Shown: piece by piece, positions 3,309 to 22,582 of the stretch
Layout of the letters: the number at the start of each line of letters is the position of its first letter
Position numbering within the stretch: the stretch's first letter is position 1
Assembly (NCBI GenBank): GCA_020429745.1
Contig: JAGQKZ010000004.1
Span: forward strand, 1-44,354
Length of the DNA stretch: 44,354 nucleotides
DNA from: a candidate division WWE3 bacterium
Lineage (GTDB): Bacteria; Patescibacteriota; 4484-211; GCA-002791395
Reading direction: 5' to 3'
Notes under the pieces: generated by a model
What the model was told of the DNA's origin: nothing
The model's input: only the letters and a program-made list of their open reading frames with translations
The model's database searches: none
Translations under genes and position numbers: made by a program

Positions 3309-3314
3309 GAATGT

Positions 3315-5274: not shown

Positions 5275-5472
5275 TCACTGTACAACACGAACCTTGTCCC
5301 GGTACGATTTCCCAACAGGCTGCCCAACCGGCTGTCCTTGAGAATCAACCGCAACAACAAACGGCCTAGCATCGTTGGTACCTGGACCGATTTGATACAC
5401 GTTAGAATCTCCCTCAAAGGAGAATTGCGTACCTTCTCGCTTCCGCATAACAATCTCCATCAAAGTTTCCAT
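5275..5472 (-). CDS. Small conserved-looking protein of unknown function (65 aa)
   Basis: 65 residues starting METLMEIVMRKREG, with a polar glycine-rich middle (QIGPGTNDARPFVV) and a basic end (GKSYRDKVRVVQ). No signal peptide or membrane segment, so probably cytoplasmic. I do not recognise it. Expression signals are unusually good for this window: a TTGTAA-17-TATAAT promoter at 5517-5545, a leader of about 35-40 nt, and AGGAGGA with 4 nt spacing before the ATG. A hairpin follows the stop. These signals, more than the sequence itself, make me regard it as a genuine monocistronic gene. A role in binding nucleic acid or another protein cannot be judged. Confidence 0.7.
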   Translation of the reverse strand: METLMEIVMRKREGTQFSFEGDSNVYQIGPGTNDARPFVVAVDSQGQPVGQPVGKSYRDKVRVVQ

Positions 5473-5516
5473 GACATCCTCCTACAAAAAACGTGCGACG
5501 ACTGTTTTACGCCCGC

Positions 5517-5545
5517 ATTATAGGATGATCACAAAGATATTACAA
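5517..5545 (-). promoter_or_regulatory. Strong sigma-70 promoter of the 65-residue gene
   Basis: Minus-strand TTGTAA, 17-nt spacer, consensus TATAAT. It lies 44 nt before the start codon, one of the few promoters here that leaves a normal leader with a Shine-Dalgarno sequence (AGGAGGA). Confidence 0.7.
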
Positions 5546-5575
5546 AGCGTATTTGATATTTAAAAGAAAAAACGA

Positions 5576-6334
5576 TTACTCAACCTCGGTTAAACGAAAC
5601 TCAAGCGGAAGATGTAGCATCTGATCCTGTTTTAGCAAACTCGCAGTGCCCTGCACCACAACGTGTACTTGCACTCGCTCTCCCGGGCCTAAGATGAAGC
5701 TTTGCGTTTGTGGGTGCACTAGTGCATCAGCCGTCACCACGATCGACTGCGGATAAACGGTTTCGCCTACAACGTGGTCCTGTTTGAGTGGTTCGACCAC
5801 AAGCTCCTGTGCACCGATCTCGACAACTTGAGCAAGCTCGGTTCCTAAATAAACGTAATCGCCGACACCATAGTAGCTAGTGTTGTTCACGGGAATAACC
5901 GCCGATCCGGCTGCAACATCTGTTGCAAGTGCATTCGTATAATCTCCGTCACCAAGGCTTACGATCAGCGATTCGTACGCATCGCTCGCGCCAGTTAGAC
6001 CCGTGCTGATAAGCTGCAACGAGACCGTCTTGTTGTCGCTTACGTTATAAACGGTATAGAGTCCGCGATAGGTCGCTCTCTGTCTTTGAAATGAGGTCAC
6101 GCCTACTTCGTCACGATACACACCGTCCGCGATCTCACTTGGAGCAAACTCAACATAGCCGTTGAAGTTCTGCACGTTAGGGATAATATTGACGTCCTCC
6201 CCTGTTACCGTATTTGCCCCCGCCACGAAACCTTCAAAATCGGACAAGCTGACAAGACTACCGACGCCTACGACAGGAAGAACAAGTAGACCCAAGAAGA
6301 AAGCCATCAAAACGACGTTCGTTACATGTTTCAT
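5576..6334 (-). CDS. Exported protein of unknown function
   Basis: 252 residues, not recognised. Residues 6-31 are a hydrophobic signal peptide or anchor after MKHVTN. The rest is polar, beta-rich and lacks cysteine, with several NxT/NxS sites and a run of alternating hydrophobic residues near VGDYVYLGTELAQVVEIG, suggesting a beta-sandwich or two. Its ATG overlaps the stop of the 172-residue membrane protein gene (ATGA), and both follow one promoter. The pair might form a small membrane complex, the second partner carrying the extracellular part; this is inference. The stop is followed closely by a T-rich run (TTTTTTCTTTT on the minus strand), a possible terminator, though the stem before it is weak. 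Confidence 0.75.
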   Translation of the reverse strand: MKHVTNVVLMAFFLGLLVLPVVGVGSLVSLSDFEGFVAGANTVTGEDVNIIPNVQNFNGYVEFAPSEIADGVYRDEVGVTSFQRQRATYRGLYTVYNVSDNKTVSLQLISTGLTGASDAYESLIVSLGDGDYTNALATDVAAGSAVIPVNNTSYYGVGDYVYLGTELAQVVEIGAQELVVEPLKQDHVVGETVYPQSIVVTADALVHPQTQSFILGPGERVQVHVVVQGTASLLKQDQMLHLPLEFRLTEVE

Positions 6335-6849
6335 CTTTCACCGACCTCTCTTTCGACATCCGCGACAAAATACCAGGTGGCCACCAAAGAAGCGACTAAG
6401 GCAAAAACAAAAACCCACAGGTAGGTTGCCTGTAAGAAGGTGTGCACGCCGATAAGCAAAACGACAAGCCACATGTACGAGATCCAAACAACGCCCTTGT
6501 TGTACACCTCGTGTGAGCTTGTCATCAAACCCGTTAAGTTCCACGACAGAAGCTGTAAGATCAAGGAGGGCTTAATATGTGTGTCGTGAAAGTGATACGC
6601 CTTGGTTAGAACCCATGCTAAACCGATAATGACAACGACGAAGACGATTAGATTCGAGTAAGAGTTTACAAATACGGTCGCCGCCTTATCGTGTAGTACA
6701 AAGTCCGGGAGCAAGGAGCTTGTGTTTAACTGCCAGGCGATTGAAAAACTCTTGACCAATACGAGTACGCCAATTACCTTTGCTACAACAAGCAAAACTG
6801 CAGGCAGTAATGCCTCGCTTATTAATCGCGTAAGTATTTTGGAAGGCAT
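6331..6849 (-). CDS. Four-helix integral membrane protein of unknown function
   Basis: 172 residues with hydrophobic stretches at about residues 11-34, 60-83, 121-139 and 142-162. Polar loops include WQLNTSSLLPDFVLHDKAA and KAYHFHDTHIKPS, the second carrying three histidines. No family recognised. It has its own near-consensus promoter, separate from the large operon that ends 72 nt upstream, and is translationally coupled (ATGA) to the exported 252-residue protein. The His-rich loop could bind metal, but nothing else supports that. Confidence 0.78.
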   Translation of the reverse strand: MPSKILTRLISEALLPAVLLVVAKVIGVLVLVKSFSIAWQLNTSSLLPDFVLHDKAATVFVNSYSNLIVFVVVIIGLAWVLTKAYHFHDTHIKPSLILQLLSWNLTGLMTSSHEVYNKGVVWISYMWLVVLLIGVHTFLQATYLWVFVFALVASLVATWYFVADVEREVGER

Positions 6850-6861: not shown

Positions 6862-6890
6862 AGTATAGGTGGCTAATTTTCGCCTGTCAA
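6862..6890 (-). promoter_or_regulatory. Near-consensus promoter of the 172/252-residue gene pair
   Basis: Minus-strand TTGACA, 17-nt spacer, TATACT; the -10 ends 12 nt before the ATG at 6849. One of the best promoter matches in the window. It shows that this pair can be transcribed independently of the upstream exported-protein operon. Confidence 0.72.
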
Positions 6891-6920: not shown

Positions 6921-7988
6921 CTAATTCAGACTCTCCTGCGCGTTTACAACCGCACCCTTAGGCGGCATGAACTCCTTAAGAGGATTTATCGCCGAGAAGA
7001 AGCTACCTGCATTTCTCGCAAGATCGGACGTTATGTTCTTGAGATCGGTCGCGCTCGAAACACCCCCCTGGCAGGCTGCGTTGGAGTAGTCCATATAGCT
7101 GGCGGGACAGATGCGTTCGTTGGTCGTATAGGTGTTACTGTTATCGGAGTCCTTCCAGATCTCGTAGTGCGAATGATAGCCTGTTGTGTCGCCTGTTAAG
7201 CCGACATACCCTATCTGGTCCCCTTTATTGACCGTCCATCTCGCCGATTCTCCGTCCGAACTAAGACACTTTGTCCCCAGAGGTCTCGTGAGCGTTCCGG
7301 AATCACCAGGCTGCGCTACCATGTGTGCATAAAGACTCATGTATGGACTATTTTCAACCACAACGTAAACCCCGTAAGACGGCGAGCCCGTCTGTTGCAT
7401 CACGGTATTTACACATCTGTACGCAGTACCCGACATCGTCGCAATCACGGGAAAGGCCAAACCAACGTCGATAGCTGGGTAAGTATGTGAATCGGTTACG
7501 TTAGCACAGTTAGACGCCGGATCGATCGGACCGCTGGGGCAGACAAGGTTCTGACACGCCTGCGTAACGATACGGGAGTCGGTCCTTCTACTTGGCCAAC
7601 CACAGGGGACCTCATCTCCAGGCTGAGCGGCTGCAGTAGTTCCAACCGCGCTACTATTTAGACCCGCAAAAGACACCGGTGGCACCTGAATAAACAAACC
7701 GTTATCGTAGTCGAAGGTGTTGTAATCGCCTGCATCTGCCGACCTTCCTGTACCATCCTTTTGGCCTTCATCCTGATTGGTCGGTGCATTACCCACCCAT
7801 TCCGGTTTAGGAAGGATAAGGATGCTTCCGCACTCGCGACACTCATATCTAAGTGCGTTTGATGATGCGAAAACGTTGAATCCCAAATCTCCGAGCTTGA
7901 CCGCAACCAAACCAAACCAACTAATGCACAACGCAACCAGATATATTGCGATTATCATTCTTTTTGTTACTTTCTTCTTATCAACCAT
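6921..7988 (-). CDS. Membrane-anchored M23-family metallopeptidase
   Basis: 355 residues. Start taken at the ATG at 7988, 12 nt after the upstream stop and preceded by AAGGGG; the longer in-frame form would begin inside the neighbouring gene. Residues about 11-32 form a membrane anchor. A CxxC pair (YECRECGS, near 48-55) follows. The M23 (LytM/lysostaphin-type) domain covers about 160-290: H168 and D174 in SHTYPAIDVG, Y-A-H222, and H272-S-H274 in GYHSHYEI. All zinc ligands and the catalytic His are present, so an active peptidoglycan endopeptidase is expected, although the insertion in SHTYPAID is slightly unusual. It is the last gene of the six-gene exported operon. The downstream part is polar with a possible amphipathic segment. 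Confidence 0.85.
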   Translation of the reverse strand: MVDKKKVTKRMIIAIYLVALCISWFGLVAVKLGDLGFNVFASSNALRYECRECGSILILPKPEWVGNAPTNQDEGQKDGTGRSADAGDYNTFDYDNGLFIQVPPVSFAGLNSSAVGTTAAAQPGDEVPCGWPSRRTDSRIVTQACQNLVCPSGPIDPASNCANVTDSHTYPAIDVGLAFPVIATMSGTAYRCVNTVMQQTGSPSYGVYVVVENSPYMSLYAHMVAQPGDSGTLTRPLGTKCLSSDGESARWTVNKGDQIGYVGLTGDTTGYHSHYEIWKDSDNSNTYTTNERICPASYMDYSNAACQGGVSSATDLKNITSDLARNAGSFFSAINPLKEFMPPKGAVVNAQESLN

Positions 7989-8002
7989 GTTCCGTTTACC
8001 CC

Positions 8003-11000
8003 TTACGGTCCTACGCATACATCTTCTGCGCCAGCACAGATCATCCAACCCGATGCCTGTATCTGACAAGTATCTTGCCAAACGTCATGCGGAGGTTTAG
8101 GAACGGCTGAAGCCGCATAAACGCAGACAGGAGCTCCCGGTGCAACTGTCTGGGCGAAGGTGAAGTCAATTCCCCCCGCATCGGTAAATTGTCGATAGAA
8201 AACACCGATTGAAGTACCTTGAGGGACCTCAGCGGAGAGGTCCCCAAACCCCTGGCAGTAACAAGCCGGGTTGCTAAAATGAGGCGACATATGGGCAGTT
8301 GGATGACCGTCGCAATCAACCGTAACACATAATGTATAACAATCGTGCCAGGCACACCCGGCCGTAATCACCGGCGATGGCCCTGGTACGTCATAAACCT
8401 CCTGCCATACCTTCTCACAGGTAACTGGATGGCGAATAACGTCGTTGCCCTCCACCAGCCAATCGGTCACATCACAGGTAGTGGCTAATGTGTTGGTCGT
8501 TGTTGTCGAACAATGATCTTGTATTGCCTGTTCAAAAGCCGAATAAGCAGCCCTGTGAACACCAGATCCATTCGTAATCCCCCAAGTGCTAGAACCGAAG
8601 TCTCTAATGGCCAGTAGTATTGCGACTTTTACATAACTATACGCGGGAGTAAATAGAGTGTCCAAGGTCTGCTGCAAGTACGCAGCCTGGTTAGCTTCCC
8701 CCACAGCCGAAGCCTCCCATCCGTACTCAGTGATCCAGATCGGTTTCCCTGCAATCGAATGTATCTGGTCAACCCAACCCAGATCAGCCGGGCCGTTCAA
8801 CTCATAAGGATGCACCGAGACCACATCATATGAATGCCCACCTGGTTTTGTATGCATATCGACAAGAAATTGCGCCTCATTAAATGTACCGTCCAAACCA
8901 CCAACGCTTACCTCAATATCCCGATTTTCTCCTTTCAATGTATCGTATGTAACCTTCAACCAGTAGGCGTACTCCGTTACTGATGCATCATCGTACGTGT
9001 CACCACTGCCAACCATAGAACCGTAACTATTTTCCTCATTCCAAAACTCGAACTTTGTTATATAAGGATACTTTTGGACTATCAGTCGTAGGTACTCCTT
9101 ATACTCAGATTCAAACGCAACGTTTGGTAGCCTACGATGGGGAGGCCTTGAATCTCCCGGTGCTGCCCAGCTTGGAGTACCAACAATACTTGCAACGATA
9201 TCAATACCTCTGCTATGGGCATCAGCCATAATAATATCTCTCGCGGCCCAATTATAAAAGTTTATAGCCGGTTCATCGTCGTCCCAACTAAAAGGAAGTC
9301 GCGTCGCTGGGACTCCCAAACTCTCCATTACTGCCATGTCTATGGTAAATGGCCAGTTGCCTGATAATGCCGACAAACGAGCATCGCAGTTCGTGGGGGG
9401 GGTCGGTGGAGTTGCGCCTAGCTGGTTGCGATCGATACCGATGTAATAGACCCTATCCGGGCCACTCTCATTTGCTCCCAAAACGTAAAGTACGTTGTTG
9501 ATAACCCCCGCAACGGAACCCTCAGGGTGGTCTCCGCCCCAAGAAACATTAATCGGTTCAGCCGGAAGTGAAGGCAAGGTTTCCCAAGATCCAGTAGGCA
9601 TCCCGGTAGTAGTATCAATCTTCGCACGATAAAATCGTGTTCCCCTTATAACATACAACCAATCATTATGTCCGATCATCTCCCCCCTGCCCCAGGCACC
9701 TGGATTACTGATCGTTTCCCAACTCCCCTCCGTTTGTCCATTATCGTTCACAACAATACGCCTAATCTCCGACGAATTAACCTTCCCCATGTAAATGAAA
9801 CCTTTATGCGGATCACTTGATTGTACAAAAGCAGCTTTATATTGAGCCTCGTTACCGCTATCAATGCTTCCACCCGTCCAACCATTATTGCCAAGTTCAG
9901 TGAAGTTATTAGCGGAGTTACCCATTGGGACCTCTGCGGAACGCATCATCTGGGTATAGCCACAGTCCTGGTTCGTATTACACTCTGGACCTGTGCCATG
10001 ATAATACCCGCCTAAGTGGAAGAAGAATATTTTTCCACTTGCAAACTCAGCAGTTATCGCATCATCCCATTCCGTATGAAGTCCTTGCATACACGCTCCA
10101 CCAGAACAGAGATCGTTTTGTGTAAAGGTATCTCCACTTGCATTGCCATCGTAACGCATGTAGTGTCCAGTCCTAAATAACCATGGATCACCATTTGCCA
10201 CCGGCAATGCATATCCTTTCTCAGATCCCCCCAGACCTGTAAAAGGCTGCCAGTTGGTGAGGTTTCCATCAATACCGGCCTGCGCATACCAGCCACCTAC
10301 TCCATATCTTTTCACTACATAAAACTTATCCCCGAGAGCAAATGCAGGCGCAGGATTTTCCTCGACCTCAGCTGGTAGAGGATCTGACTTCATCCAAGCG
10401 CCGCCGACGGCATCCGAAGGCGTCGGTGTTGGCGTTGGAGTATCGGTTGGAGTAAGTAGCACACCCATCGCTCCGAAGACAGATGCCAAACTAACTAAAC
10501 CGTGATTAACACCGGCGATGTTTGTTGTGTTGCCTTCTATCAGCGCGCGCACTTCAGTATTGGTAAGCGTTGGGTCTTGCGACAAGATCATCGCAGCAAT
10601 CGAAGCTACCATGGGGGACGCCATCGAGGTCCCCGACCAGGCAACATAAGAGTCGTCGGCTACCGGCCCCTGGTTACCTGAGGTGTCGTACTCATGTGCA
10701 ACCGTCGACGCTATACCTACGCCAGGTGCGGCTACATCAACCCAGCTACCATGCTCCGAAAAATCAGCTAAATCACCGTTTTGATTCGATGCACCCACGG
10801 CGATAACCTTATCGTAAGCAGCAGGATATATTGTAGGATTCGCAGTCGGGCAATCAGGCGGATTGACCATGCCACAGTTACCGGCAGCTGCCACTACCAC
10901 CACACCTGAGCCCCACGCAAAGTTGACGGCGTTTTCTAAAAGATTACTAGGAGTCGGACTACCGACGCTCAGGTTGATCACCTTTACGCCCTGTGCCACC

Positions 11001-11809
11001 AGACCCGCTATCGCCGCCGCGACCCAGTCGTCACGACACGTCCCGTCACTTTCACAGCCGGTTGCACCGATCATATGAATGTTTGCACCGATCGAAGCCA
11101 CACCCTTATTGTTGTCGGTAGCCGCACCGATAATGCCCGCAACGTGCGTGCCATGATCGCCATCCGTCTCGCCGTGATCAGCTAGCTGCATGTCAACCTT
11201 GCCGGCTAGATCCTCCTGCGATAATCGGATCGTGCTGTCGACTACTCCGACGAGTACGTTCTCATCGCCTTGTTCCACACCCCAAACGGTCGGCATATCA
11301 AGAGCCTCCAGCCACCAGGGCGTGCCTAAAGTTGTGTAATCGTTCGGCGGTGGCGTAAACGGCGTGTAAGCCTGCACGGATCTTACAACATTGTAATCCA
11401 CCGAGGCATATCCATCCACACCTTGCATCTGCAAAAACTTGTCTTGAAGATCGGTGCCCGTTGGGAAGTAGATACTCCAGAACCCCTCCATGACCTCCTC
11501 CATGCTCTCCCCACCAATCTCCTTCATCAGCTCCTGGCGCCGTGCCTCGTCAACACCCTCGTCAAAGCTAACAACAAGCATGTCTTTAACCACAACGGTC
11601 TCCTGACCGTCGTAGACAACCTTTGTGCGATCATCCGTCAACGGCACACTAGCCCCCGTACCTGAAAGACCTAAGTCGACAACACTGCTCCGCGACTTAA
11701 AAAACAACGACCATATCGTAAATACAATAACTGACATACATATCAGTCCGGCTACTAATCCAAGGATTATCTTGGTTTTTTTGTTAAGATTTTGTATCAC
11801 GTTTTTCAT
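8003..11809 (-). CDS. Giant anchored subtilase / propeller-like / clan GH-A glycosidase fusion
   Basis: 1268 residues. TM anchor at about 13-37. A propeptide-like region is followed by a subtilisin (S8) domain at about 160-450, with D191 (GVVDST), H219 (DGDHGTH), N311 (AAGNCG) and S395 (SGTSMASP): a full catalytic set. A Thr-Pro linker (453-465) leads to a repeated beta-rich region (about 470-795) resembling a kelch or sialidase propeller. Residues about 805-1095 form a TIM-barrel glycosidase resembling GH39/GH5, with likely acid/base E925 (EFWNEEN) and nucleophile E1028 (WITEYGW). The tail is cysteine-rich (about 12 Cys), probably disulfide-bonded outside the cell. Protease and glycosidase in one chain is an uncommon architecture. 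The GH substrate cannot be told from sequence. Separated by 9 nt from the preceding subtilase and by 14 nt from the M23 gene. Confidence 0.85.
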   Translation of the reverse strand: MKNVIQNLNKKTKIILGLVAGLICMSVIVFTIWSLFFKSRSSVVDLGLSGTGASVPLTDDRTKVVYDGQETVVVKDMLVVSFDEGVDEARRQELMKEIGGESMEEVMEGFWSIYFPTGTDLQDKFLQMQGVDGYASVDYNVVRSVQAYTPFTPPPNDYTTLGTPWWLEALDMPTVWGVEQGDENVLVGVVDSTIRLSQEDLAGKVDMQLADHGETDGDHGTHVAGIIGAATDNNKGVASIGANIHMIGATGCESDGTCRDDWVAAAIAGLVAQGVKVINLSVGSPTPSNLLENAVNFAWGSGVVVVAAAGNCGMVNPPDCPTANPTIYPAAYDKVIAVGASNQNGDLADFSEHGSWVDVAAPGVGIASTVAHEYDTSGNQGPVADDSYVAWSGTSMASPMVASIAAMILSQDPTLTNTEVRALIEGNTTNIAGVNHGLVSLASVFGAMGVLLTPTDTPTPTPTPSDAVGGAWMKSDPLPAEVEENPAPAFALGDKFYVVKRYGVGGWYAQAGIDGNLTNWQPFTGLGGSEKGYALPVANGDPWLFRTGHYMRYDGNASGDTFTQNDLCSGGACMQGLHTEWDDAITAEFASGKIFFFHLGGYYHGTGPECNTNQDCGYTQMMRSAEVPMGNSANNFTELGNNGWTGGSIDSGNEAQYKAAFVQSSDPHKGFIYMGKVNSSEIRRIVVNDNGQTEGSWETISNPGAWGRGEMIGHNDWLYVIRGTRFYRAKIDTTTGMPTGSWETLPSLPAEPINVSWGGDHPEGSVAGVINNVLYVLGANESGPDRVYYIGIDRNQLGATPPTPPTNCDARLSALSGNWPFTIDMAVMESLGVPATRLPFSWDDDEPAINFYNWAARDIIMADAHSRGIDIVASIVGTPSWAAPGDSRPPHRRLPNVAFESEYKEYLRLIVQKYPYITKFEFWNEENSYGSMVGSGDTYDDASVTEYAYWLKVTYDTLKGENRDIEVSVGGLDGTFNEAQFLVDMHTKPGGHSYDVVSVHPYELNGPADLGWVDQIHSIAGKPIWITEYGWEASAVGEANQAAYLQQTLDTLFTPAYSYVKVAILLAIRDFGSSTWGITNGSGVHRAAYSAFEQAIQDHCSTTTTNTLATTCDVTDWLVEGNDVIRHPVTCEKVWQEVYDVPGPSPVITAGCAWHDCYTLCVTVDCDGHPTAHMSPHFSNPACYCQGFGDLSAEVPQGTSIGVFYRQFTDAGGIDFTFAQTVAPGAPVCVYAASAVPKPPHDVWQDTCQIQASGWMICAGAEDVCVGP

Positions 11810-11818
11810 ATTAACTTA

Positions 11819-13252
11819 TCAGTCGCACATATCACAAACCTCGCTTCTTGTCGGCCCAAAATAATCCGGGGTCGGGGTGACTACATTCGCTACTCTGCTC
11901 ACTACCGCCGCTGCATCTACTAAACCGTACCTGCTGACGTAATCCGGTTGCGCCGTTGTCTCAAGCGTCTCAATGAACTCAGGAAGAGGCGTTGTTGACT
12001 TAGCGGCAGAGACCATTAACGCCGCAACACCCGAAACGACAGCAGATGAGATCGAGGTCCCACTCGCAAGTACGTACTTACCTCCCGGATAAGTAGTCAC
12101 GACGTTTACTCCGGGAGCACTCAGCAACGCATAATTCCCCTCTGCACCGACGTTCCCTGTGGCAAAGGTCGCCTTTGTCAACTTATCGGTCAAGGCCGTC
12201 ACACCTACAACCTCGTTGTATGCAGCCGGATACATTACGGTACTATTTTTAGAGTACGGAAAATCGCCATCGAGGTTATATGACCTCGTCTCAAAACAAG
12301 CCGAACTCTGCGTGTCGGCCGCCGCATCCTCCACTGCATTTCCGCAGTTACCTACTGCTGCAACAATAATAGTTCGTTCATTGATGTACATATCGAAGAT
12401 CACGTCATGTAGCACGACATTATCAAACGGAGTACCCATGCTTATGTTGATTACGCGCACACGTTTTTTAACCAGTTCGTTTAGCGCCTCGATCATGCTC
12501 GCAACGGTTGTTCCACCGTTTGCTGCGATGATCTTTGTTGCATAGCCCACCGAAGAGATACCGCGATCGTTATTGGTTGCAGCGGCGATAACACCAGCCA
12601 CCATCGTGCCGTGTGGCGTGCCCTTCTCCTTCGTTAAAGTCTCGACCTTACCTTTTAAATCGGGATGTGTCACATCAACAGGGGTATCGACCATACCGAC
12701 TACAACGTCCTCACTGCCCTTTGTAACGTCCCAGGCCACCGGCGCGTTTATTGCATCAAGCCAGTATGCACTTGTTGTGTCGGTACGTCCCGGATCAACG
12801 GTGAGCTTATCGTAATCATTAGGGACAAAAAATGGCGCAATAGCGTCGTTGAGTTCAGTTGATAACACCGAATCCAGCTTAGCAAGCTCTGACGATTTTG
12901 TCGCAAGATCGGTATCGTCTGAGAACCTAAACAACCAGTAAGTCGGCGATATTTTTCGCTCTGACTCCGCACCAACGTAGTTTGCAAGTTCGCTAATGTC
13001 GGAATCACTCAATGCTGGAACAGGGCGCACAAAAATAGCACCCTTTTCTACAACACGGTACTCTCCTTCGCTCTTTATTATGTACTGCCGATCCTGTGGC
13101 AGCAGCAGTCCACCGTCTATAACACCCGCACTTTCACTCACAACGCCAAGGCTCATGACGAAGATCGCGGTAACGATCGCCCCTACTACACCGGACACGA
13201 TGATAAGCAACCCGCCTACGTTCCAGCTGTGTTGCTTAAGTACTGCTATCAT
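11819..13252 (-). CDS. Membrane-anchored subtilisin-like serine protease (S8)
   Basis: 477 residues. TM anchor at about 13-37, then a region of about 110 residues that looks like an inhibitor-type propeptide, then the S8 domain: D189 (GMVDTPVD), H214 (GTPHGTMVAG), oxyanion N302 (AVGNCG) and S400 (SGTSISSAVV). All catalytic residues are kept. The short tail after a TPTP piece ends in CDMCD. It resembles the protease half of the next gene (8003-11809) in order and spacing of motifs, so the two are probably paralogues by duplication. Its ATG overlaps the stop of the upstream 334-residue gene (ATGA). An extracellular maturation or degradative protease is expected; its substrate may include the other products of this operon. 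Confidence 0.9.
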   Translation of the reverse strand: MIAVLKQHSWNVGGLLIIVSGVVGAIVTAIFVMSLGVVSESAGVIDGGLLLPQDRQYIIKSEGEYRVVEKGAIFVRPVPALSDSDISELANYVGAESERKISPTYWLFRFSDDTDLATKSSELAKLDSVLSTELNDAIAPFFVPNDYDKLTVDPGRTDTTSAYWLDAINAPVAWDVTKGSEDVVVGMVDTPVDVTHPDLKGKVETLTKEKGTPHGTMVAGVIAAATNNDRGISSVGYATKIIAANGGTTVASMIEALNELVKKRVRVINISMGTPFDNVVLHDVIFDMYINERTIIVAAVGNCGNAVEDAAADTQSSACFETRSYNLDGDFPYSKNSTVMYPAAYNEVVGVTALTDKLTKATFATGNVGAEGNYALLSAPGVNVVTTYPGGKYVLASGTSISSAVVSGVAALMVSAAKSTTPLPEFIETLETTAQPDYVSRYGLVDAAAVVSRVANVVTPTPDYFGPTRSEVCDMCD

Positions 13253-14253
13253 TCGTCCGCCGCCTCCACGGCTACAGTAGTATCACCTGACGAAAAGATA
13301 TAAACCGGACTAAGCGTTCTTGTTTTTGATAGGGTGTAGAAGTCCTTCTGATTGATGTAGTAAGCCGGATAGATACTATCGATCAGCCACTGCGTAGAAG
13401 GATCATCTCGCATCTTCACAACCGAAAATTCACCGTTTTGAAACTTTTGTTGTGCACTCGCAAAGCTAAGCACATCCATCTCAGGGTTCGTTTGTTCAAA
13501 GTTAGGGATAAATAGCGACATAAGCTTTATGGTGCCCGTGCCATCGACGTAAACGTAGCTCTCGATCGGCATAATAACCGGCACTCCAGCTATCTCAAAA
13601 GGTATGGTGAGACGAATGAGCGGACCAGTACCTGAGGTAACCTTTGTAACGGTATCGGTCGAATCGAGGTAGTAATACTCCGCCGTCACCGCATCGAGAT
13701 TCATCCCCGTTATAGGAAGTTGCGTCTTGGTGAAGAAGTTATTGAGCGCATTTACCGCAATTTGCTGGGACGGAACGTTAGTGTGGTCTATGTTGCTGTC
13801 CAGGTTAAACGCCGTAGAAAAGTTGATCTCTCCGATATCTTTTGCGATGTAAAGCGAACGCACGTCTTCAAGCCACGCCGGATTCGTACTCGACGGAAGT
13901 ACCACCGCCTTTGAACTAAAACCTAACGCGTCGGCGATCAATACCTGCCTGCTCGAATCGAACCAGTTGTCGACCGGATGCCCCAGCGCAATCTCTGGCA
14001 TCTTGCTTACCACCTTTGTCGAGACTCCACTGTCGACCTTCACATCAACCTGCCCCTTATAAACGGTATCGATGTTTTGTGGTGCATTAACAAACGTGAC
14101 AACCTCCGCCTTGCCACGATTACGGCTAAGAAGGTACATACCAAAGATGATTAAGATAATCACAACCACGCCAAGTGCATACGGCTTGTTGTTTTTAACA
14201 AGTTCGACCAATCTTGATGCAAATTGTTTGAGCAGTTCTTTTATCTTTATCAT
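13249..14253 (-). CDS. Single-pass membrane protein with extracellular alpha/beta domain, unknown function
   Basis: 334 residues. I chose the ATG at 14253 because it overlaps the preceding stop as ATGA and gives a normal anchor: basic residues, then a hydrophobic helix at about 26-42. The extracellular part (about 50-334) has no cysteine and no obvious catalytic motif. It alternates helices and strands in a way that suggests two related alpha/beta sub-domains (one containing QQIAVNALNNFFTK, another SFASAQQKFQNGEF). The pattern recalls YycH/YycI or PepSY-like folds, but identity is too uncertain to name. Being coupled at both ends to enzyme genes, it may be a chaperone, inhibitor or scaffold for the neighbouring proteases; this is inference. 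Confidence 0.78.
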   Translation of the reverse strand: MIKIKELLKQFASRLVELVKNNKPYALGVVVIILIIFGMYLLSRNRGKAEVVTFVNAPQNIDTVYKGQVDVKVDSGVSTKVVSKMPEIALGHPVDNWFDSSRQVLIADALGFSSKAVVLPSSTNPAWLEDVRSLYIAKDIGEINFSTAFNLDSNIDHTNVPSQQIAVNALNNFFTKTQLPITGMNLDAVTAEYYYLDSTDTVTKVTSGTGPLIRLTIPFEIAGVPVIMPIESYVYVDGTGTIKLMSLFIPNFEQTNPEMDVLSFASAQQKFQNGEFSVVKMRDDPSTQWLIDSIYPAYYINQKDFYTLSKTRTLSPVYIFSSGDTTVAVEAADE

Positions 14254-17200
14254 GGTGGATACGCTGGACACCAACCTCCGGAGCCGCTATACAAACCCCA
14301 ACCACCCAGTTTGTTACAAACAAGGTCTGCATAACCCATCTCGTTCTCAGGCGGAACACTAACATCGTGGTCCTTTAGAGGATTGGGGAGAAGTGGACCT
14401 GAAACAGTACCTGGATAAGTAGAGTCAAGCAGGAATGTTGCATCCTGAACATACGCGATTGTAGATCCATTTGGGGCATTGCTCCCCTGATACTTCCAGC
14501 TCGCATCATAGATAACGCCTTGCTCGCTCGGGTCAACTCCGCCGCCCGCTACAACCGTATAGTAATGACCACGTGTGTCTAGTCGAGATGGGGTAATCTT
14601 GCTCAACAAAACCCTTGCCATTAACTCAATCGCATCACTCGTCCTACATCGAGAAAGACGTAATGGGTCAGGGGTAATCGTCGAACCCACGTCGCAGACC
14701 TGTCTGTCGTAAGGTACTCCGCTAGTTTCATAAGCTTCATAATAGTCGTTTGTAACATCATTGTAGGTACCGTCTACTATTTGTGCCGGACCTAATGCTG
14801 TGAAGGTGTTAGGAGTACAGTCAAATGTTGTAGTCCCGACCAGTGTTCTGTTTGTCAAATCAGGAATCGCCTCAATCTCCAAGATCGCCCTCAGCCATCC
14901 CTCGGGCACGTTATATTCACTAGCTGCATGGGCAATCGCGGAGTTGACAGTCGCAATCGATAGATCGTATTTGCAAGTTGCTGGCGTTGGCGTCGGCGTT
15001 ACAGGTCCCAGCGATGGTGTGGGTGTCGGCGTATCTGTTGGAAGCGGCGTTACGAAAGCGCTGTTGACATAAACCGGTCCTCGCACCGCTACCGGTTTCA
15101 AATGATTAACCGGGAAGAAGAAACCAGGCCGTCCCGGATCTTGAATACACGCCTCGATGTAAGGATCCTCAAGACATCCATACACATCAAGACTCGCGTA
15201 ATACAAGTCTCCTACTGTTCTGTCGGTCACGATCTCGTACTGAATATGCCGCCTTCCAGGACTACCTGAATCTCCAACCAATCCTAACAACTGGTTACGA
15301 GAGACGTAGGGGCCAAAACCATAAGGAAGCTTCTCCAATCCTAACGGTATCTCGTTTAAGAAAAACTCCGTAGAGTAACTCAACCTTCTGTTGCGTACGT
15401 CAGCAATAAAGAGGTTATTCGGAACAAGGTGCGTGTACTGGGTTATTACGTCAGGGAAATTGTCGCGGTCTAAGTCGGTCTCAACCTGTACCATCCAACC
15501 CTTCTCCTTGTACTGTGCCGGAGCTGGACCAGCATAAGTTACAAATCCCGCATGCGTGCTGTAGACGAAGTTGGCGCTGGCGTTGCTGTAACTTGGATCG
15601 ATATCAATACCGGGGTGAATGTACCCTTCTCGCGGTGTAACGACCACTGCAGGCGTAGGTGTTGGTACCGCAATCGGTTCACAATAATAAACCCTCGAAT
15701 CCGCTGCGAGTGGTTGCGTTTTTAGTTCGGGGGCAACGACGCGTACCATTGCAAAAATATCGTCGTCTTTCACGGAAGCCGTGGAGGCGGGGTCGCAATC
15801 ACAATTTAAGCGGAAGTCGGTATCTCCATCAAGTCCGTCGTTTAACACAAAACCATTACCTACATTGAAGTTCCACATCTTCTCTTTCCAGAGACCACTG
15901 TCGTTTTTCTGCACGGTCTGTCTACGGACATTACCTGTTTCATCTTCATACTCCAATGAGAAAGTACCCGTCCCAGAGTCTAGGTAATTTACCGTAACAT
16001 TAACGCTCGACGCCGTCGGTATTCCTGTTGCGTTATCCACAACAAACGACATATAGTAACCGTCATTTGCCATATCAGTAGCACGCGCACCGGCAGAGAA
16101 AGGATGTGACAGTTGAGATCCATCAAGATAGCTACTCTGCAACTGAGATCCCGTAATAAATCTTGTATTGTTATTGGGGATATCGTACGCACAATTATTA
16201 ATCGTCGTAGAGTAATTTTCTTGACCATCGGCCAGTACCCCACCTTGATTACGAATTAATGAGGTATCTTCGGTCGCTTCCGGCCGATAAAGATAGAAAT
16301 CCTTATCACCTCTCTCGGTGAATTCGTACGGATAATAGTTCCCAGAACCCGGTACGGCAGGTGGAGGGCTAGAGGGGGGAATAGAGTCGTATTCAGAGAG
16401 AACATCCGCGAAAGCAATCCAGGCGTTTGGAGATTGGTTGGGAGTTTTGCCGATGGAGTCTTCCAGAAGCTCATCGAACCACGTCAGTCCCATATCGTGT
16501 ATCAGCCTGTACTTACGTGCGAAAAATTCACCTTGAAAGCTGAGAACATCACCATTTAACTCCAATGAGTTAATATAATCCCAAAAAGCCACTTGGTATC
16601 GTGCATCTGAATAACAATAGGTGCTACTACAGTGATTATTATCAGGACCTGTTTGCCAATAATACGGCTCAAAGCCATGCGGAAGCGTTAAAGGCGTCAT
16701 CGCAACAAAATCGTAAAAGCCACCTTTTCCACCAGCATCGTAGTTTACCTTCGTATTGAAACTATTCTCACTTGCTGGCGCTAGACCGTTTAACTTAATT
16801 CCAATTCCTAGCTGTTGGGCTCTTGCAGAGTATCTGCTCCTAAGATTTGAAGACGCCGCTGCCGCTTGCAAGAACAAGGGGAACGCCAAACCACTACCCT
16901 CCTGATATGCATTCTTATACCATTGGAGAGATTCAAGAACGTAGTTATTATATGCCGACATTCTCGTTGAATCGTTCACAAATGTGGTTTTGTAAGCGCA
17001 ACCTGATTGATTTACCGTCGGTGTCGATTCGTCACTCAATCCGGTTGACAAGTATACAGCCTGAACAATATCCTTATATGACGACTGTTTTATATGTTCG
17101 GCAAAGGCTGTTATAAATGCTTGAAACTGCTGTTGCCAATAAGAATCTCCATATGCGGGAATCTCCTGGTCGGCACAACCCACCGCAGTAATTTTTAACT

Positions 17201-17750
17201 GAGTAGGATCCACCACATTACCCTTTATGAACTGTGGCGTATAGTCTTTGAATGTTCCCCCCTCGTCGAGATAAAAAGCCACTGAAAGCGTGACCGGTTT
17301 ATAATTTACTGTATTTCCGGAAGCATCCTGAATCGCCATGCTACTGGCCTGTTGCAAAGCAGTGTCGACTCGAGTCCAGTTGTACTGCCCGACTCCTGAC
17401 TGAAGATCGCTCCAGAGAAAATACAACTGACTACCAAACGAACCGTAATAGTAATCGTTTCTTATGGCAGGAAGTCCAAGGAAACAGTCGTCATTTGTAC
17501 CAGCCTTTTTGAGTGTTTTCGGGTCACAGTTGCCTGAATCGTACTGGAGATAGGTGACACTATCGATGTCAAACTTTGAATTGCTAAAAGCCGCTCCTCC
17601 CGCAGCGACAACTTGGTTGTCGGCAAGATTCGGGACTGCAATCTGCGACCGAAGATGCCACTTGTAAACCGCAGTAAAACAAGCCAGAACAAACACAAGC
17701 GCACCAACTCCAAGTATTATCCTGTGTTTTAATATATTTTTAATATCCAC
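14250..17750 (-). CDS. Giant anchored multidomain wall-degrading-type protein (barrel, degenerate M23, lytic transglycosylase-like)
   Basis: 1166 residues, GTG start 2 nt after the preceding stop and no visible Shine-Dalgarno. TM anchor about 9-30. Residues about 60-450 resemble a TIM-barrel glycosidase of the beta-galactosidase-like type (FLWSDLQSGVGQYNW), but the catalytic acids are not certain. A beta-sandwich-like region follows (about 490-690). An M23-like domain (about 705-880) has HPGID (H712, D716) and YTH774, but the HxH motif reads H835-I-Q837, so one zinc ligand is replaced by Gln. After a Thr-Pro linker, about 925-1110 looks like a soluble lytic transglycosylase (YNVPEGWLRAILEIEA with candidate Glu 958 or 960, and ALGPAQI). 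Expected to act on peptidoglycan outside the cell. Substrate and activity of the first barrel are unknown. Confidence 0.75.
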   Translation of the reverse strand: MDIKNILKHRIILGVGALVFVLACFTAVYKWHLRSQIAVPNLADNQVVAAGGAAFSNSKFDIDSVTYLQYDSGNCDPKTLKKAGTNDDCFLGLPAIRNDYYYGSFGSQLYFLWSDLQSGVGQYNWTRVDTALQQASSMAIQDASGNTVNYKPVTLSVAFYLDEGGTFKDYTPQFIKGNVVDPTQLKITAVGCADQEIPAYGDSYWQQQFQAFITAFAEHIKQSSYKDIVQAVYLSTGLSDESTPTVNQSGCAYKTTFVNDSTRMSAYNNYVLESLQWYKNAYQEGSGLAFPLFLQAAAASSNLRSRYSARAQQLGIGIKLNGLAPASENSFNTKVNYDAGGKGGFYDFVAMTPLTLPHGFEPYYWQTGPDNNHCSSTYCYSDARYQVAFWDYINSLELNGDVLSFQGEFFARKYRLIHDMGLTWFDELLEDSIGKTPNQSPNAWIAFADVLSEYDSIPPSSPPPAVPGSGNYYPYEFTERGDKDFYLYRPEATEDTSLIRNQGGVLADGQENYSTTINNCAYDIPNNNTRFITGSQLQSSYLDGSQLSHPFSAGARATDMANDGYYMSFVVDNATGIPTASSVNVTVNYLDSGTGTFSLEYEDETGNVRRQTVQKNDSGLWKEKMWNFNVGNGFVLNDGLDGDTDFRLNCDCDPASTASVKDDDIFAMVRVVAPELKTQPLAADSRVYYCEPIAVPTPTPAVVVTPREGYIHPGIDIDPSYSNASANFVYSTHAGFVTYAGPAPAQYKEKGWMVQVETDLDRDNFPDVITQYTHLVPNNLFIADVRNRRLSYSTEFFLNEIPLGLEKLPYGFGPYVSRNQLLGLVGDSGSPGRRHIQYEIVTDRTVGDLYYASLDVYGCLEDPYIEACIQDPGRPGFFFPVNHLKPVAVRGPVYVNSAFVTPLPTDTPTPTPSLGPVTPTPTPATCKYDLSIATVNSAIAHAASEYNVPEGWLRAILEIEAIPDLTNRTLVGTTTFDCTPNTFTALGPAQIVDGTYNDVTNDYYEAYETSGVPYDRQVCDVGSTITPDPLRLSRCRTSDAIELMARVLLSKITPSRLDTRGHYYTVVAGGGVDPSEQGVIYDASWKYQGSNAPNGSTIAYVQDATFLLDSTYPGTVSGPLLPNPLKDHDVSVPPENEMGYADLVCNKLGGWGLYSGSGGWCPAYPP

Positions 17751-17752
17751 AG

Positions 17753-20700
17753 TTAATTTAAGTCACACGACCATACCGGATCTATATGTTGACCAGCGAT
17801 TACCCCCACGGCATAGCTGTTATCCGTATTGCTACCGTTCTGCCAACCGACCCAACCATAACCCCTAGCAATATAAAAGTTCTCACCTGCACCTCCACCA
17901 TTCAACACCTGCAGGTGCGCAACGTCTGTAAATGTATAACCGTTTGATCCGAAACCAGACCAGGTCGGGAGAATCTCGACCAACTTCATCTCTGAATTTG
18001 TCGTTCCTGTGTACGGTGTTTCACAGCAACCGCAAGTAACCTTGTTAATTCCGACTACGGTTTGTGGCCGTTGCACTGTATCACCAACACTCATAAACCG
18101 GCCGGTCCAGATCCCCCCTTCTGCACCTTGGTTACTGCTGTATGCACCGCATGTATTCTGCGCAGATCCGAAGTTGCCGTTTAGCAATGTGAACGCAGCC
18201 TCATCGCTTGTGCCGTTACACATAACATTCTGGTGAAGGCCGATCGCCCAGGTTGAGTCGGTTAAGTGGTATATGTTTGTATTATCGTAGTTAAACTCTT
18301 CTACGTTAGTGAACGACTGATATCTTTTGGCGATTGAAAAGCCGGTCTTGTTCCTTACAGTTTGTGCAGTCGTACTAAACTCCTCTCCACTTGACATCTG
18401 GATTATTGACGGACTCGACGGTAGATAGTAAGCAAGCAGGTCTACGGTCCCAGTTGGTGGAGTCACAGTAGGTTGAGGAGTTACCGGTGGGATCAACGAC
18501 GCGTTACACAGGGGATCGTTCGTATCGGAGAAAAAGACCGAATACTTATCGCAGTCCCATGTAGGATTCTGCGTAATAGATCCTTGCCAGATTATAAATG
18601 CATCCGCTCCAATAGCCGCCTCATCGGTGGTAAACTGCGCGGCTCTCTCCGCAAGTGCTGTGGCCGAACATCCCCCAATCGTACACGCATGAGAAACACA
18701 GTCTATTCCCTGCGGCACAATCGATGCTTCACCTACGTAAAAGTACTTGCCCGCACCCTGCGTTATCTGGTTCGCCTGAATACAGTTACTGATTATCCCC
18801 GGATCGGTCTGCTGGTTCGGTAGGGTACGGTAGTAGTGACAAGAGTTAGCGGTCATACTTGGAATATTCGTTATCCTCTGATACTCCCCATTCGTTAATT
18901 TCTCTCCTGGATCGTCGATAGCCTTCAAACCAGGAGAAACCAACGTACCGGGATCGAGGCTGTGAATAGTGTTTGCCATATCTACCATGAAGTTATACAT
19001 TGCGTCAGCACACTCTTGTGAAGTATCTCCGTCACATTGAGGTTCGTTCATAATCTCCCAAACCTTGATCTGCTGCTTATTAGCCAATGCTCCGACGACG
19101 CTCATAACGTACTGCTTGTAATTATTCGCTCCCGTTTTGTAACCCGAGGTAAACCAGTCCTTTGCAGAGCTACCACCAAGCACAGTGTTGAAATCTTCCA
19201 GCGCGATAACAAACTCAAGATTTGCCGACTCTGGTGCGTTTAGCACCCGCTCAATTGAAGCCTGTCCGTTAACGTTATGACAACCGTTACATCCCCACAT
19301 GCGAACAAGTTCCAAACCGGCGGCATTAATGCCCTGGTCCAGAGTAGAAGAGATCGTGCCTGAAGATTGGGTACCAAGCCCCCAAAGATTGTACCCATGC
19401 ATCTGAGAGATCGTTAGATTCGTGTTCGTCTGTTGCGTTGCACTACAATACCTGAACTCGCCATAATCAACGCCTGGGTCGCTTCGATACGACCCTTGCT
19501 GCGTGGCCGCGCCGGTGTAACCCCAGTCCTGAGAGATCTCTCCTGTGACCGGATAGCCGTAGGGTCTTGCATCGTCATCGAGAATACGACCACCGATCGG
19601 TATCGACGCCAACAGCTCTGCTCTGCCGGTACGGTCGTCACCCACTCCACCAAAGGCCGCTGAGATTAACATCGGTCCAATTACGGAGTTGTTGGAGGAG
19701 GCGTTGTAACCACACCCCCCTATTCCTGTAACGTCACGATAAACGTCGAAGTACTGATGACCCAACGGCACGATCACCTCAGGATCGGTGCCATCACATC
19801 GGCTCGCCTCCAGAGGATCATCGGGATCACAGACGAAGTTGTAGTCACGTGGATTAATAGCCCCTACCCCAGCAAGGTTTGGAGGCGGAGCACTCTGACA
19901 GGTCACCACACAACCCAATGCATCGGCCGACTCTGTCTGCGGAACAACGCTGCTAAACAAACCGCTTAGTGTGGTAGTATCCGCTTCGGTAAGACGGTTA
20001 CCGGGAACACACTGCCCCTGATCATGACAGTTGGTGCACCCGTAAACGGGATCGAGACATTCATTAGTGATCGCTCCTCCGGGACACGCACTAAGCGAAC
20101 CAGACGTACACGACGAACCCTGGAAACAGTACGGTGGCGGACACCCAGGAACCTGAATACACTGCCCGTCACATATCTTTCCAGCGGCGTCAAACATCTG
20201 ATAGTAAACCTGGCACTGCAGCAACGTCGGATTTGCAACGGGGGCAGCACAGGTAGCACCATCTACTGAGTGGGTTTTGACTTCCGTACATTCGCACGGT
20301 ACATTAGCATACGCCCAGTTATAGGAGATCGGTATAGAGTTTATCGATTCACCCGTAGTGTGCGGAATGGCCTGCGCCTGATCCTTCTCCCAGTTAGGAT
20401 CCTGCAACGGCAACTCTATCTCAGATCCCGCTTCTCCATACGCCGGCACATCAAACGGACCGAAGACGATCTGCGGACCGTAAGCCGCGTCTATCGTGTC
20501 GATCGTCATGGGTATGCCGTTGACCGTACGTGAAACCACCTTATCTCCCAGAGTGCTGCCATGACTGAATTTAAGATCGCTGCCATCTTCGTACGGAAAG
20601 TCGAGGTTGTGTGGGAGCGCATACTCCCCATTGGTAGAGAAACTTTGCGTATTTACGGTAAGCAAAACGTTCTCGACCGGCCTATCTGTTGGGTTCTCCA

Positions 20701-21490
20701 CCTTCACATACATCGAGAAGAGGTTGGAGGTCTCTGCCTCGGTTTGAAACTCAACGTAGTTATCGGTTACACAGGTCACGCCGTCGCATTCGCTCAAACA
20801 TTGATATGCGTAACCGTCGCGACGTATGTACTTGTTAGAGATCGTGTTCGGCAGCGTATTCGTATTGGGCCCTTCCGAGGGAATACTATCCTGTGGAATA
20901 CGCGATTCAACCAGTAAAGTTGGTTCTGCCCCGCACCAGCCTACCAGCACATGCTGCAACCCTTGCATCCTACACATCTCCTGTCGATAGCACAACTCCC
21001 ACTTAGTCGGAAGCGGTGGTTCTCCCGGTCCTGGCGTCGGTATAGACGGCGGCCCTCCCGGAACATCGTAGATGCCCGTCTCGCATGGGCAATGCAAAAG
21101 TGAGATATGTTCCTGCGCCAACGGATCGGCATTTTCCGGATCAACCCCCTCCTTCCCGATGGTGACAGCGTCCCACTCAAAAGACAACTTCAACTGACTC
21201 GTTTGGGCCGGGTCTGGGACATAATCAGGAGGCGTAGGAGGCGTCCACGGACCGGTAGGCGTCGGCGTAGGCGTCAGCGCCGGAACCACCACACCACCCG
21301 GGAACACGTCGCTTAATCCGCTGAAGATACTATCAATACCGTTGGTGATACCGTCAAATATGCTTCCAAACGAACCTCCTTCACCGCCCGAGAAGATATC
21401 CGCCTTAACCGGCTTACTAAAGGTAAGGCTCAACATCGCAAACGCCGACACAAGGACGAAGATTGTTGGCAGTTTTATCTTTTGTTGCAT
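17753..21490 (-). CDS. Giant secreted cysteine-rich protein with GH5-like domain
   Basis: 1245 residues, first gene of the operon. I chose the ATG at 21490: it follows the promoter correctly and yields a standard signal peptide (MQQKIKLPTIFVLVSAFAML..., likely cut after VKA). A longer in-frame form would begin upstream of the promoter. After a Thr-Pro linker come several Cys-rich stretches (about 130-240 and 400-600) with more than 40 cysteines. A short piece (GYPVTGEISQDWGY ... DPGVDYG, about 645-678) resembles the beginning of an M23 domain without its second half. Then a GH5-like barrel (about 700-990) shows acid/base E816 (WEIMNEP) and nucleophile E921 (YFYVGEAS). A last domain of about 220 residues is unrecognised, glycine- and aromatic-rich. 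No membrane anchor besides the signal peptide is seen, so it may be fully secreted. Confidence 0.8.
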   Translation of the reverse strand: MQQKIKLPTIFVLVSAFAMLSLTFSKPVKADIFSGGEGGSFGSIFDGITNGIDSIFSGLSDVFPGGVVVPALTPTPTPTGPWTPPTPPDYVPDPAQTSQLKLSFEWDAVTIGKEGVDPENADPLAQEHISLLHCPCETGIYDVPGGPPSIPTPGPGEPPLPTKWELCYRQEMCRMQGLQHVLVGWCGAEPTLLVESRIPQDSIPSEGPNTNTLPNTISNKYIRRDGYAYQCLSECDGVTCVTDNYVEFQTEAETSNLFSMYVKVENPTDRPVENVLLTVNTQSFSTNGEYALPHNLDFPYEDGSDLKFSHGSTLGDKVVSRTVNGIPMTIDTIDAAYGPQIVFGPFDVPAYGEAGSEIELPLQDPNWEKDQAQAIPHTTGESINSIPISYNWAYANVPCECTEVKTHSVDGATCAAPVANPTLLQCQVYYQMFDAAGKICDGQCIQVPGCPPPYCFQGSSCTSGSLSACPGGAITNECLDPVYGCTNCHDQGQCVPGNRLTEADTTTLSGLFSSVVPQTESADALGCVVTCQSAPPPNLAGVGAINPRDYNFVCDPDDPLEASRCDGTDPEVIVPLGHQYFDVYRDVTGIGGCGYNASSNNSVIGPMLISAAFGGVGDDRTGRAELLASIPIGGRILDDDARPYGYPVTGEISQDWGYTGAATQQGSYRSDPGVDYGEFRYCSATQQTNTNLTISQMHGYNLWGLGTQSSGTISSTLDQGINAAGLELVRMWGCNGCHNVNGQASIERVLNAPESANLEFVIALEDFNTVLGGSSAKDWFTSGYKTGANNYKQYVMSVVGALANKQQIKVWEIMNEPQCDGDTSQECADAMYNFMVDMANTIHSLDPGTLVSPGLKAIDDPGEKLTNGEYQRITNIPSMTANSCHYYRTLPNQQTDPGIISNCIQANQITQGAGKYFYVGEASIVPQGIDCVSHACTIGGCSATALAERAAQFTTDEAAIGADAFIIWQGSITQNPTWDCDKYSVFFSDTNDPLCNASLIPPVTPQPTVTPPTGTVDLLAYYLPSSPSIIQMSSGEEFSTTAQTVRNKTGFSIAKRYQSFTNVEEFNYDNTNIYHLTDSTWAIGLHQNVMCNGTSDEAAFTLLNGNFGSAQNTCGAYSSNQGAEGGIWTGRFMSVGDTVQRPQTVVGINKVTCGCCETPYTGTTNSEMKLVEILPTWSGFGSNGYTFTDVAHLQVLNGGGAGENFYIARGYGWVGWQNGSNTDNSYAVGVIAGQHIDPVWSCDLN

Positions 21491-21505: not shown

Positions 21506-21535
21506 AGTATACGGGCGTGCAGGGCCTTTGGTCAA
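21506..21535 (-). promoter_or_regulatory. Promoter of the six-gene exported-protein operon
   Basis: Minus-strand TTGACC, 18-nt spacer, TATACT; the -10 ends 15 nt before the ATG at 21490. It lies in the 57-nt gap after the beta-propeller gene. Gaps of -4 to 14 nt between the next five genes suggest it drives all six. Confidence 0.68.
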
Positions 21536-21547: not shown

Positions 21548-22582
21548 TTATTTTATCCCCACCAACTTTATCTCACCGTAATTTGTATTTGTCGCGAGCA
21601 GAAGGTTCTTCCCCGGCGCATAGATGACGATATTTAAACCCGCGACCTTACCGAGCGACGAGTTCAACGGCACAACCTTTACCACCCTCTCCATTGCTAT
21701 ATCGACAACACCGATCTCACCGTCGGTATAACTTGCAACGTATATGCGATTATTATCGGTATCGAGCGAAAAATCGCTGGGGTAGTGCACCGCTTCTATC
21801 GTACCGACTACCTCGTTATTGTCCGACCTCAGGGCGATGATCTGTCCACCGTACTCATCAAGAACAAGAATTAGATCCTGAGGTGTATATGTTATTAACT
21901 TAACCGGACGACCCAATTCTTGAATCGTACCTACAACCGTAAGATTCGAAAGCGCAATCTTCGTGATCGAACCGCTATCATAGTTGGCAACAAAAGCGTA
22001 TTGTCCGTCGGCACTCATCGCAACGTCCACCGGACGTCGTTCGACGGCGATGTATTTAATAGCAACGAGCGTGTCTGGATTTAAGATCGCGACCGAGTCT
22101 GTGTATTCGTTCACAACAAAGAGGTACTTATTATCATTCGTGAGCGCCATCGCATAAGTTCCTTTGGAAACCTTTACCTCAACCTCGGTATCGAAGGTGG
22201 CGGTCGATAACTTGCGCACGATCTCACCGTCAGTAGTATAAAGTACCGACTCATCGGCCGAGAAAAGTAGCCTACTGGGATTGGGGGTCTGGATTGTCGA
22301 ATCGATCTTCCCCGTATCGGGATTAATCACATAAAGGAGACTTTCGTCCACACTCGAAACGTAAAACATCCCCCTGGTGCGCGAGTAAGTTGCATCGGTC
22401 AAATCGTCTTTCGCCTCGACATCTTGCACAGAGATATTTAGCGAAGGTTCCTCGACAACCGGCGTCGGTATTGGTCCTGTGTTTTTATTGCTCGATGTAA
22501 CGCCAAACGCCACGATACCGATGATTACCAAAACGAGGGCAACGATGACGACAACCAACAGGCGAGTAGAGGGCAATTTCAT
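21548..22582 (-). CDS. Membrane-anchored beta-propeller protein (YVTN/NHL-type repeats)
   Basis: 344 residues. Signal anchor at about 8-28, short Pro-rich linker, then about seven repeats of roughly 40 residues covering residues 50-344. Typical units are YLFVVNEYTDSVAILNPDT and YAFVANYDSGSITKIALS, which match the YVTN-type surface propeller repeat. These proteins usually bind ligands or partners at the cell surface and have no catalytic residues. The gene lies 19 nt after ruvX and 57 nt before the exported-protein operon, so it ends the ftsA-like cluster. A TAATAT box 6 nt before its ATG could be an additional promoter, but there is no good -35. Confidence 0.82.
   Translation of the reverse strand: MKLPSTRLLVVVIVALVLVIIGIVAFGVTSSNKNTGPIPTPVVEEPSLNISVQDVEAKDDLTDATYSRTRGMFYVSSVDESLLYVINPDTGKIDSTIQTPNPSRLLFSADESVLYTTDGEIVRKLSTATFDTEVEVKVSKGTYAMALTNDNKYLFVVNEYTDSVAILNPDTLVAIKYIAVERRPVDVAMSADGQYAFVANYDSGSITKIALSNLTVVGTIQELGRPVKLITYTPQDLILVLDEYGGQIIALRSDNNEVVGTIEAVHYPSDFSLDTDNNRIYVASYTDGEIGVVDIAMERVVKVVPLNSSLGKVAGLNIVIYAPGKNLLLATNTNYGEIKLVGIK

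Follow-up and report, generated by a model that had tools for sequence, protein, structure and literature searches.

Six consecutive genes of a candidate division WWE3 (Katanobacteria) bacterium encode very large exported proteins with glycosidase, subtilase and M23 peptidase domains. The question raised by this locus is whether the genes form a degradative system of their own or belong to a larger machine. They lie on contig JAGQKZ010000004.1 of assembly GCA_020429745.1, of which 44,354 nt were analysed ('the window' below). The genome (G000) comprises 972,760 bases in 86 contigs and is 82% complete. An earlier note, made from the sequence alone, had placed this DNA among the CPR bacteria, which agrees with the label 'candidate division WWE3' carried by its relatives. 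The interpretation that we favour, with a probability of about 0.64, is that the six genes are a wall- and surface-acting arm of the WWE3 type IV secretion system (T4SS), relocated to the region between ruvX and secY and expanded with additional enzymes.

The six ORFs are all on the minus strand (21490-6921) and total 4,845 aa. From the first gene (giant1) to the last (encoding a 355-aa protein) the spacings are 2, -4, -4, 9 and 14 nt, and each of the six proteins starts with a hydrophobic segment (signal or anchor), as the original description of tightly packed exported genes had it. That description also included a single promoter before the set. A consensus site does exist at this position but the FtsA/PilM-like, 524-aa, ruvX and beta-propeller genes upstream are co-oriented with the set and separated by gaps of at most 57 nt, so that transcriptional read-through into the set is possible. 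With a second site in front of the next unit, the six genes would be bounded by promoters on both sides. Sigma-70-like sites are as numerous across the region as in shuffled sequence, and both promoters are therefore to be read as consensus matches backed by position; the second is additionally backed by its conservation in two other genera of the window's family (family f1, genomes G001 and G002). The unit that it precedes (5576-6849, minus strand) encodes a 172-aa protein with four transmembrane segments, which all nine of the relatives checked possess (35-65% identity), and an exported partner of 252 aa, whose gene adjoins the 172-aa gene in the window and in G001, G002, G003, G005 and G006. 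The coordinates of all features are listed in the table.

Table. Features of the six-gene set, its surroundings and the T4SS genes found elsewhere in the same genome (positions are those of the window except for contig 85)
Feature	Position	Strand	Evidence or remark
Beta-propeller gene, anchored, associated with the set	21548..22582	-	Pfam Lactonase 6.9e-11; follows the M23 gene in G001 and G002 (synteny)
Sigma-70-like promoter, TTGACC-18-TATACT	21506..21535	-	About 15 nt before the giant1 ATG; sequence scan, consensus only
giant1, 1245 aa from ATG	17753..21490	-	Signal, cysteine-rich core, N-terminal piece of M23-like domain, GH5-like barrel, C-terminal module X
First half of split M23-like domain (PYGYPVTGEISQDWG...FRYC), giant1	19445..19570	-	Runs without a break into the giant2 half in five relatives
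GH5 mannanase-like barrel, NEP and GEAS glutamates, giant1	18434..19435	-	PDB 3ziz mannanase 1.8e-11; Pfam Cellulase 3e-4
Module X, giant1 C-terminus	17765..18442	-	At the giant2 N-terminus in G002; 43% identity, E 1.9e-45
giant2, 1166 aa	14250..17750	-	Anchor, uncertain barrel, second M23-like half, putative transglycosylase-like C-terminus
Second half of split, degenerate M23-like domain (YIHPGIDI...YTHL...HIQYE), giant2	15051..15641	-	57-63% identity to G001/G002, 42% to G004
334-aa single-pass protein, predicted YycI/YycH/YpeB-like fold	13249..14253	-	AlphaFold and Foldseek; homologous to T4SS-locus protein
477-aa anchored subtilase (S8), triad intact, lineage-specific	11819..13252	-	Pfam 2.3e-31; catalytic residues
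1268-aa anchored subtilase with kelch-like region and GH39/PslG-like glycosidase	8003..11809	-	Pfam S8 1.1e-44; PDB PslG 1.6e-5
355-aa anchored M23 peptidase	6921..7988	-	Pfam 1e-8; fused to kelch-like region in G001 and G002
Promoter of the next unit (172-aa and 252-aa genes), TTGACA-17-TATACT	6862..6890	-	11/12 consensus; recurs in G001 and G002
T4SS pilin	Contig 85 (L073), 1195-1515		T4SS_pilin 1.2e-9
VirB6-like polytopic protein, 1445 aa	Contig 85 (L073), 1561-5898		Seven transmembrane segments in addition to the signal; homologues adjoin PrgI

The domains first attributed to the set from its translations are largely, but not entirely, borne out. The GH5-like barrel, a degenerate M23 domain, two subtilases and a complete M23 peptidase are all present, while neither the glycosidase identity of the giant2 barrel (residues 40-500) nor the transglycosylase identity of the giant2 C-terminus is supported by Pfam or PDB. 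The additional barrel that had been listed also exists, but within the protein of the second subtilase, where it occupies residues 820-1155 of 1268; it is GH39/PslG-like, with both glutamates kept. The D, H and S residues are intact in both S8 subtilases, and the 355-aa protein carries the complete M23 metal/catalytic motif (H168..D174, YAH, HSH). The kelch-like region of the 1268-aa protein (a name given by eye) also occurs in G001 and G002; compared with the neighbouring beta-propeller, it is not the same. A structure model of the giant1 core was too poor for use (pLDDT 37.5).

Searching with the 334-aa and 1166-aa proteins as seeds, a check proposed in the earlier note, finds the core together in three f1 genera and in four WWE3 order-mates from other families (G003, G004, G005 and G006). 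In all four order-mates the core directly precedes PrgI-TrsD-VirB4 in the same orientation and consists of the giant1 core joined to the M23-like module, an anchored protein of about 334 aa and a third large exported protein. The full order is the giant, the anchored protein (326-346 aa), the large exported protein (with M23 detected in G004 and G006), a smaller anchored protein, PrgI, a carboxypeptidase-regulatory-like protein, a TrsD-like protein and VirB4; in G004 a contig end cuts the TrsD-like gene and VirB4 sits on another contig. The 334-aa homologue is 4.2-5.8 kb from PrgI in each of the four genomes, which are about 1 Mb in size. Outside the order, one genome (G014) has a cluster of pilins, a VirB6-like protein, a giant and a 374-aa homologue at 18 kb from PrgI. 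Contig C81 of G004 carries three pilin-like genes, a VirB6-like gene and then, at the contig end, the N-terminus of giant1, and contig C78 opens inside the same giant; the two contigs presumably join. The cysteine-rich core of giant1 is kept in all T4SS-linked relatives. PrgI itself is present in 106 of the 116 relatives and VirB6-like homologues adjoin it in seven of 12 other sampled genomes, 'VirB6-like' being a label based on position and topology to which Pfam gives no match. The set cannot, then, be called an undescribed stand-alone system, since its core in the order-mates is part of the Patescibacteria T4SS locus. The proposal that it is a functional unit with a role at the surface of a host or neighbour or in an envelope machine is supported.

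Not every component shares this linkage. None was found for the subtilases or the propeller in the relatives compared, and the propeller of the window showed no signal of homology to anchored propeller-like proteins beside PrgI. A separate observation concerns gene 3 of the T4SS-linked sets (L022 2678-3916, L025 13181-14440, L027 11796-12908), in which glycosidase-like motifs occur in swapped order, with LTEIGWY before GPNEP. At the level of these motifs, gene 3 is possibly a circularly permuted barrel.

The 334-aa protein gave no match in Pfam or PDB when searched by sequence. Its AlphaFold model, built from four sequences (pLDDT 74, pTM 0.70), predicts a YycI/YycH/YpeB-like fold with a single N-terminal anchor: Foldseek retrieved 9a5d (2.3e-5), 2o3o (6.9e-5) and 5boi (4.6e-4) with a probability of 1.00 and TM scores of 0.33-0.53 by target, and the significant PDB matches among those listed are YycH, YycI and YpeB only. 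Identity with VirB8, which has an NTF2-like periplasmic fold, was also considered and is rejected on this fold search, there being no VirB8 among the matches listed. The likeness to YycI, YycH and YpeB extends to the single anchor and the predicted fold; unlike them, the 334-aa family is linked to T4SS or gltX genes rather than to WalKR or SleB, and no sequence similarity was found. The closest relative outside the window's own 334-aa family is the T4SS-locus protein of G004 (74.5 bits), whereas gltX-linked paralogues reach at most 23 bits, which disfavours orthology to the latter. These paralogues adjoin gltX in several other Patescibacteria (L055, L056, L057, L061, L062, L063), away from any T4SS gene, and indicate that such a fold also exists outside T4SS loci. 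A profile comparison of the window's 334-aa family with the T4SS-locus group (families A2 and A3) gives an alignment with an E value of 2.6e-14.

The M23-like module of the giants provides a second link. Core and module form one ORF in five relatives (G003-G006 and G014), where PFGWPxxGVIxQDWG... runs straight into a (W/L)HxGIDI-like sequence. In the three f1 genomes the module is split at an identical point: the first half ends in giant1 and the second sits in giant2, with other modules (including glycosidases) and a new anchor between them. For the part of giant1 that holds the first half, identity is 57% with G001 and 46% with G004. The module is degenerate, HxH being replaced by HxQ in the window's family with other losses in f2, and the complete zinc/catalytic set (HxxxD...H...HxH) is not found on one chain in giant1 or giant2. 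Retention of both halves suggests that they still pair.

Within f1 the set recurs in both sister genera, with its modules shuffled, between ruvX and secY/adk. The left flank there is alaS, an FtsA/PilM-like gene, a 524-aa gene and ruvX, and the right flank is the 172-aa gene, the 252-aa gene and SpoIID. The order is giant1, giant2, the 334-aa protein, a single protein combining the kelch-like region and M23, and the propeller; the part from giant1 to kelch/M23 is fixed across the three genera at about 30-60% identity. The GH39 domain is carried by giant2 in both sister genera, as is module X in G002. One subtilase occurs in G002, none in G001 and none in the set of any other relative, and on this comparison the subtilases are lineage-specific additions. 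As a conserved unit the six genes thus stand only in their core, the subtilases being nearly private to the window and the glycosidase modules moving between genes. The FtsA/PilM-like-524 block and the 172/252 pair exist in the order-mates and more widely too, but there they are either separated or placed on different contigs, so that the ruvX-secY position of the set is, as far as gene neighbourhoods tell, derived. The gene after ruvX in G004 encodes an anchored protein of 332 aa, MltG-like by eye (L096 245-1629), at the spot held by the relocated set or the propeller in the window's family.

A rival reading is that the set parted from the T4SS on relocation and is now an independent secreted operon degrading walls or host surfaces, for nutrition or predation. 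It is in keeping with this that the set is apart from virB4 in the two f1 genomes that have both (about 55 kb away on the same contig in G001, on a separate contig in G002), that it has a candidate promoter of its own together with added subtilases and glycosidases, and that searches of the window's own genome (82% complete) found neither PrgI nor VirB4, although both are present in G001, G002 and the order-mates. This last absence is probably an assembly gap, suggested rather than proven: PrgI-VirB4 adjoins rnpA-yidC in G001 and G002, and the yidC orthologue that flanks them there is missing from the assembly too, which holds only a 22%-identical YidC paralogue. Contig 85 of the same assembly carries a pilin gene followed directly by that for the 1445-aa VirB6-like protein, whose exported N-terminal part is very large. 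It speaks against independence that the sister genera or the window's own genome still have the T4SS core, pilins and VirB6-like genes, and that both M23-like halves are conserved, which fits a structural partner better than free enzymes. We consider an independent operon unlikely, if still the most serious of the rival explanations.

Somewhat less probable again is that the set builds or remodels the cell's own envelope (S-layer, capsule or septum), the PslG-like GH39 domain trimming the cell's own polysaccharide while the M23 peptidase and the YycI/YpeB-like protein control wall turnover. YycI, YycH and YpeB folds control wall hydrolysis in Bacillus, and PslG acts on self-made Psl. The 1268-aa protein resembles PslG (GH39) in its barrel and both glutamates; unlike PslG, the barrel is fused here to a subtilase and in the sister genera to giant2, and the window contains no psl operon. 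The surroundings could also be taken to favour an envelope function, as FtsA/PilM-like and ruvX genes adjoin the set and exported envelope genes are near (25779-31653, plus strand: CAP, GT2, sortase, polysaccharide deacetylase and a 383-aa anchored protein). However, the order-mates have the core at the T4SS locus rather than next to FtsA/PilM, and in other families the FtsA/PilM-524 block stands without the set. The exported genes at 25779-31653 lie between alaS and the FtsA/PilM-like gene; as the latter directly follows alaS in G001 and G002, this stretch looks like an insertion of roughly 6 kb private to the window. Finally, it is scarcely credible that lineage-specific surface enzymes with no function in common have simply accumulated in this operon: domain content does vary between genera and the subtilases are nearly private to the window, but the conserved order from giant1 to kelch/M23 in three genera, with a core common to four more genomes, already disfavours this.

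The T4SS of WWE3 bacteria, presumed to act on host cells, is homologous to the conjugation machines of monoderms. The loci compared here, in order-mates and sisters, are like known Patescibacteria T4SS in their PrgI, TrsD, VirB4, VirB2-like pilin and VirB6-like genes, their chromosomal location, their rnpA/yidC context (G001 and G002) and the wall hydrolases alongside. They are unlike those surveyed in having a large conserved exported arm with glycosidase, subtilase and split M23-like parts which, in f1, is far from virB4. The survey of these MPF-FATA-like systems (Quinonero-Coronel et al. 2025, PMC12102498) describes VirB6 as rare among Microgenomatia and VirB8 as almost restricted to ABY1; in most classes VirB1 shows no high association with VirB4, and a PrgB-like adhesin was not found. 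It also reports that epibiotic growth requires T4SS genes in the single species that was tested. A literature search found no paper on a Katanobacteria T4SS of this type.

In monoderm T4SS the VirB1 enzymes are anchored and consist of several domains; in PrgK, LytM and CHAP have a regulatory role, and it has been suggested that VirB1 homologues without activity serve as adhesins (PMC12857230). Like PrgK (pCF10) and TraG (pIP501), proteins of the set are membrane-anchored and multi-domain, and include a LytM/M23-like domain that is non-catalytic and, possibly, a transglycosylase-like one. They differ in being far larger, in spreading the M23-like domain over two genes and in the addition of glycosidase barrels. 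No CHAP domain was found in the set, a profile search of PDB sequences gave no match to PrgK or TraG, and no set protein has a sequence match to VirB1, VirB8 or an adhesin. By analogy the set would fit the VirB1/surface-arm slot; we do not claim that it includes VirB1 or VirB8. Its parts (a non-catalytic M23-like scaffold, an active M23 peptidase, a YpeB/YycI-like restraint, glycosidases and proteases) would match the positions that the survey leaves vacant.

Under the favoured interpretation, that of a relocated T4SS arm, the set would have left the T4SS locus for the ruvX-secY region and gained extra enzymes. giant1 and giant2, formerly one polypeptide, would be exported and pair through the split non-catalytic M23/LytM-like domain as a scaffold on the outward side of the channel. 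The YycI/YpeB-like protein in the membrane may hold or restrain wall hydrolases, while the complete M23 peptidase, perhaps with the C-terminus of giant2, would open peptidoglycan, either that of the cell itself or that of the host, to make way for channel and pilins. The GH5 and GH39 barrels and the subtilases would trim polysaccharide and protein on the partner surface. The function that we infer for the set is thus to clear the cell's own wall and to bind or digest the host surface; the observations behind it are the gene order, the homology chain, the split domain, the conserved motifs and the T4SS linkage in order-mates, whereas pairing of the halves, membership of a common complex, the targets and host contact are parts of the model. 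A more specific form of it, which we put forward tentatively, is an extracellular T4SS head resembling a drill head, in which the two giants are joined by the split non-catalytic M23 domain and carry swappable glycosidase and protease modules that open host polysaccharide and wall.

If the interpretation is correct, the wall-side and surface-side slots of the T4SS in WWE3 would be filled by a conserved exported module, and the YycI-like protein would be a new T4SS-linked component. The specificities of the glycosidases would then give a clue to the hosts that these bacteria attack.
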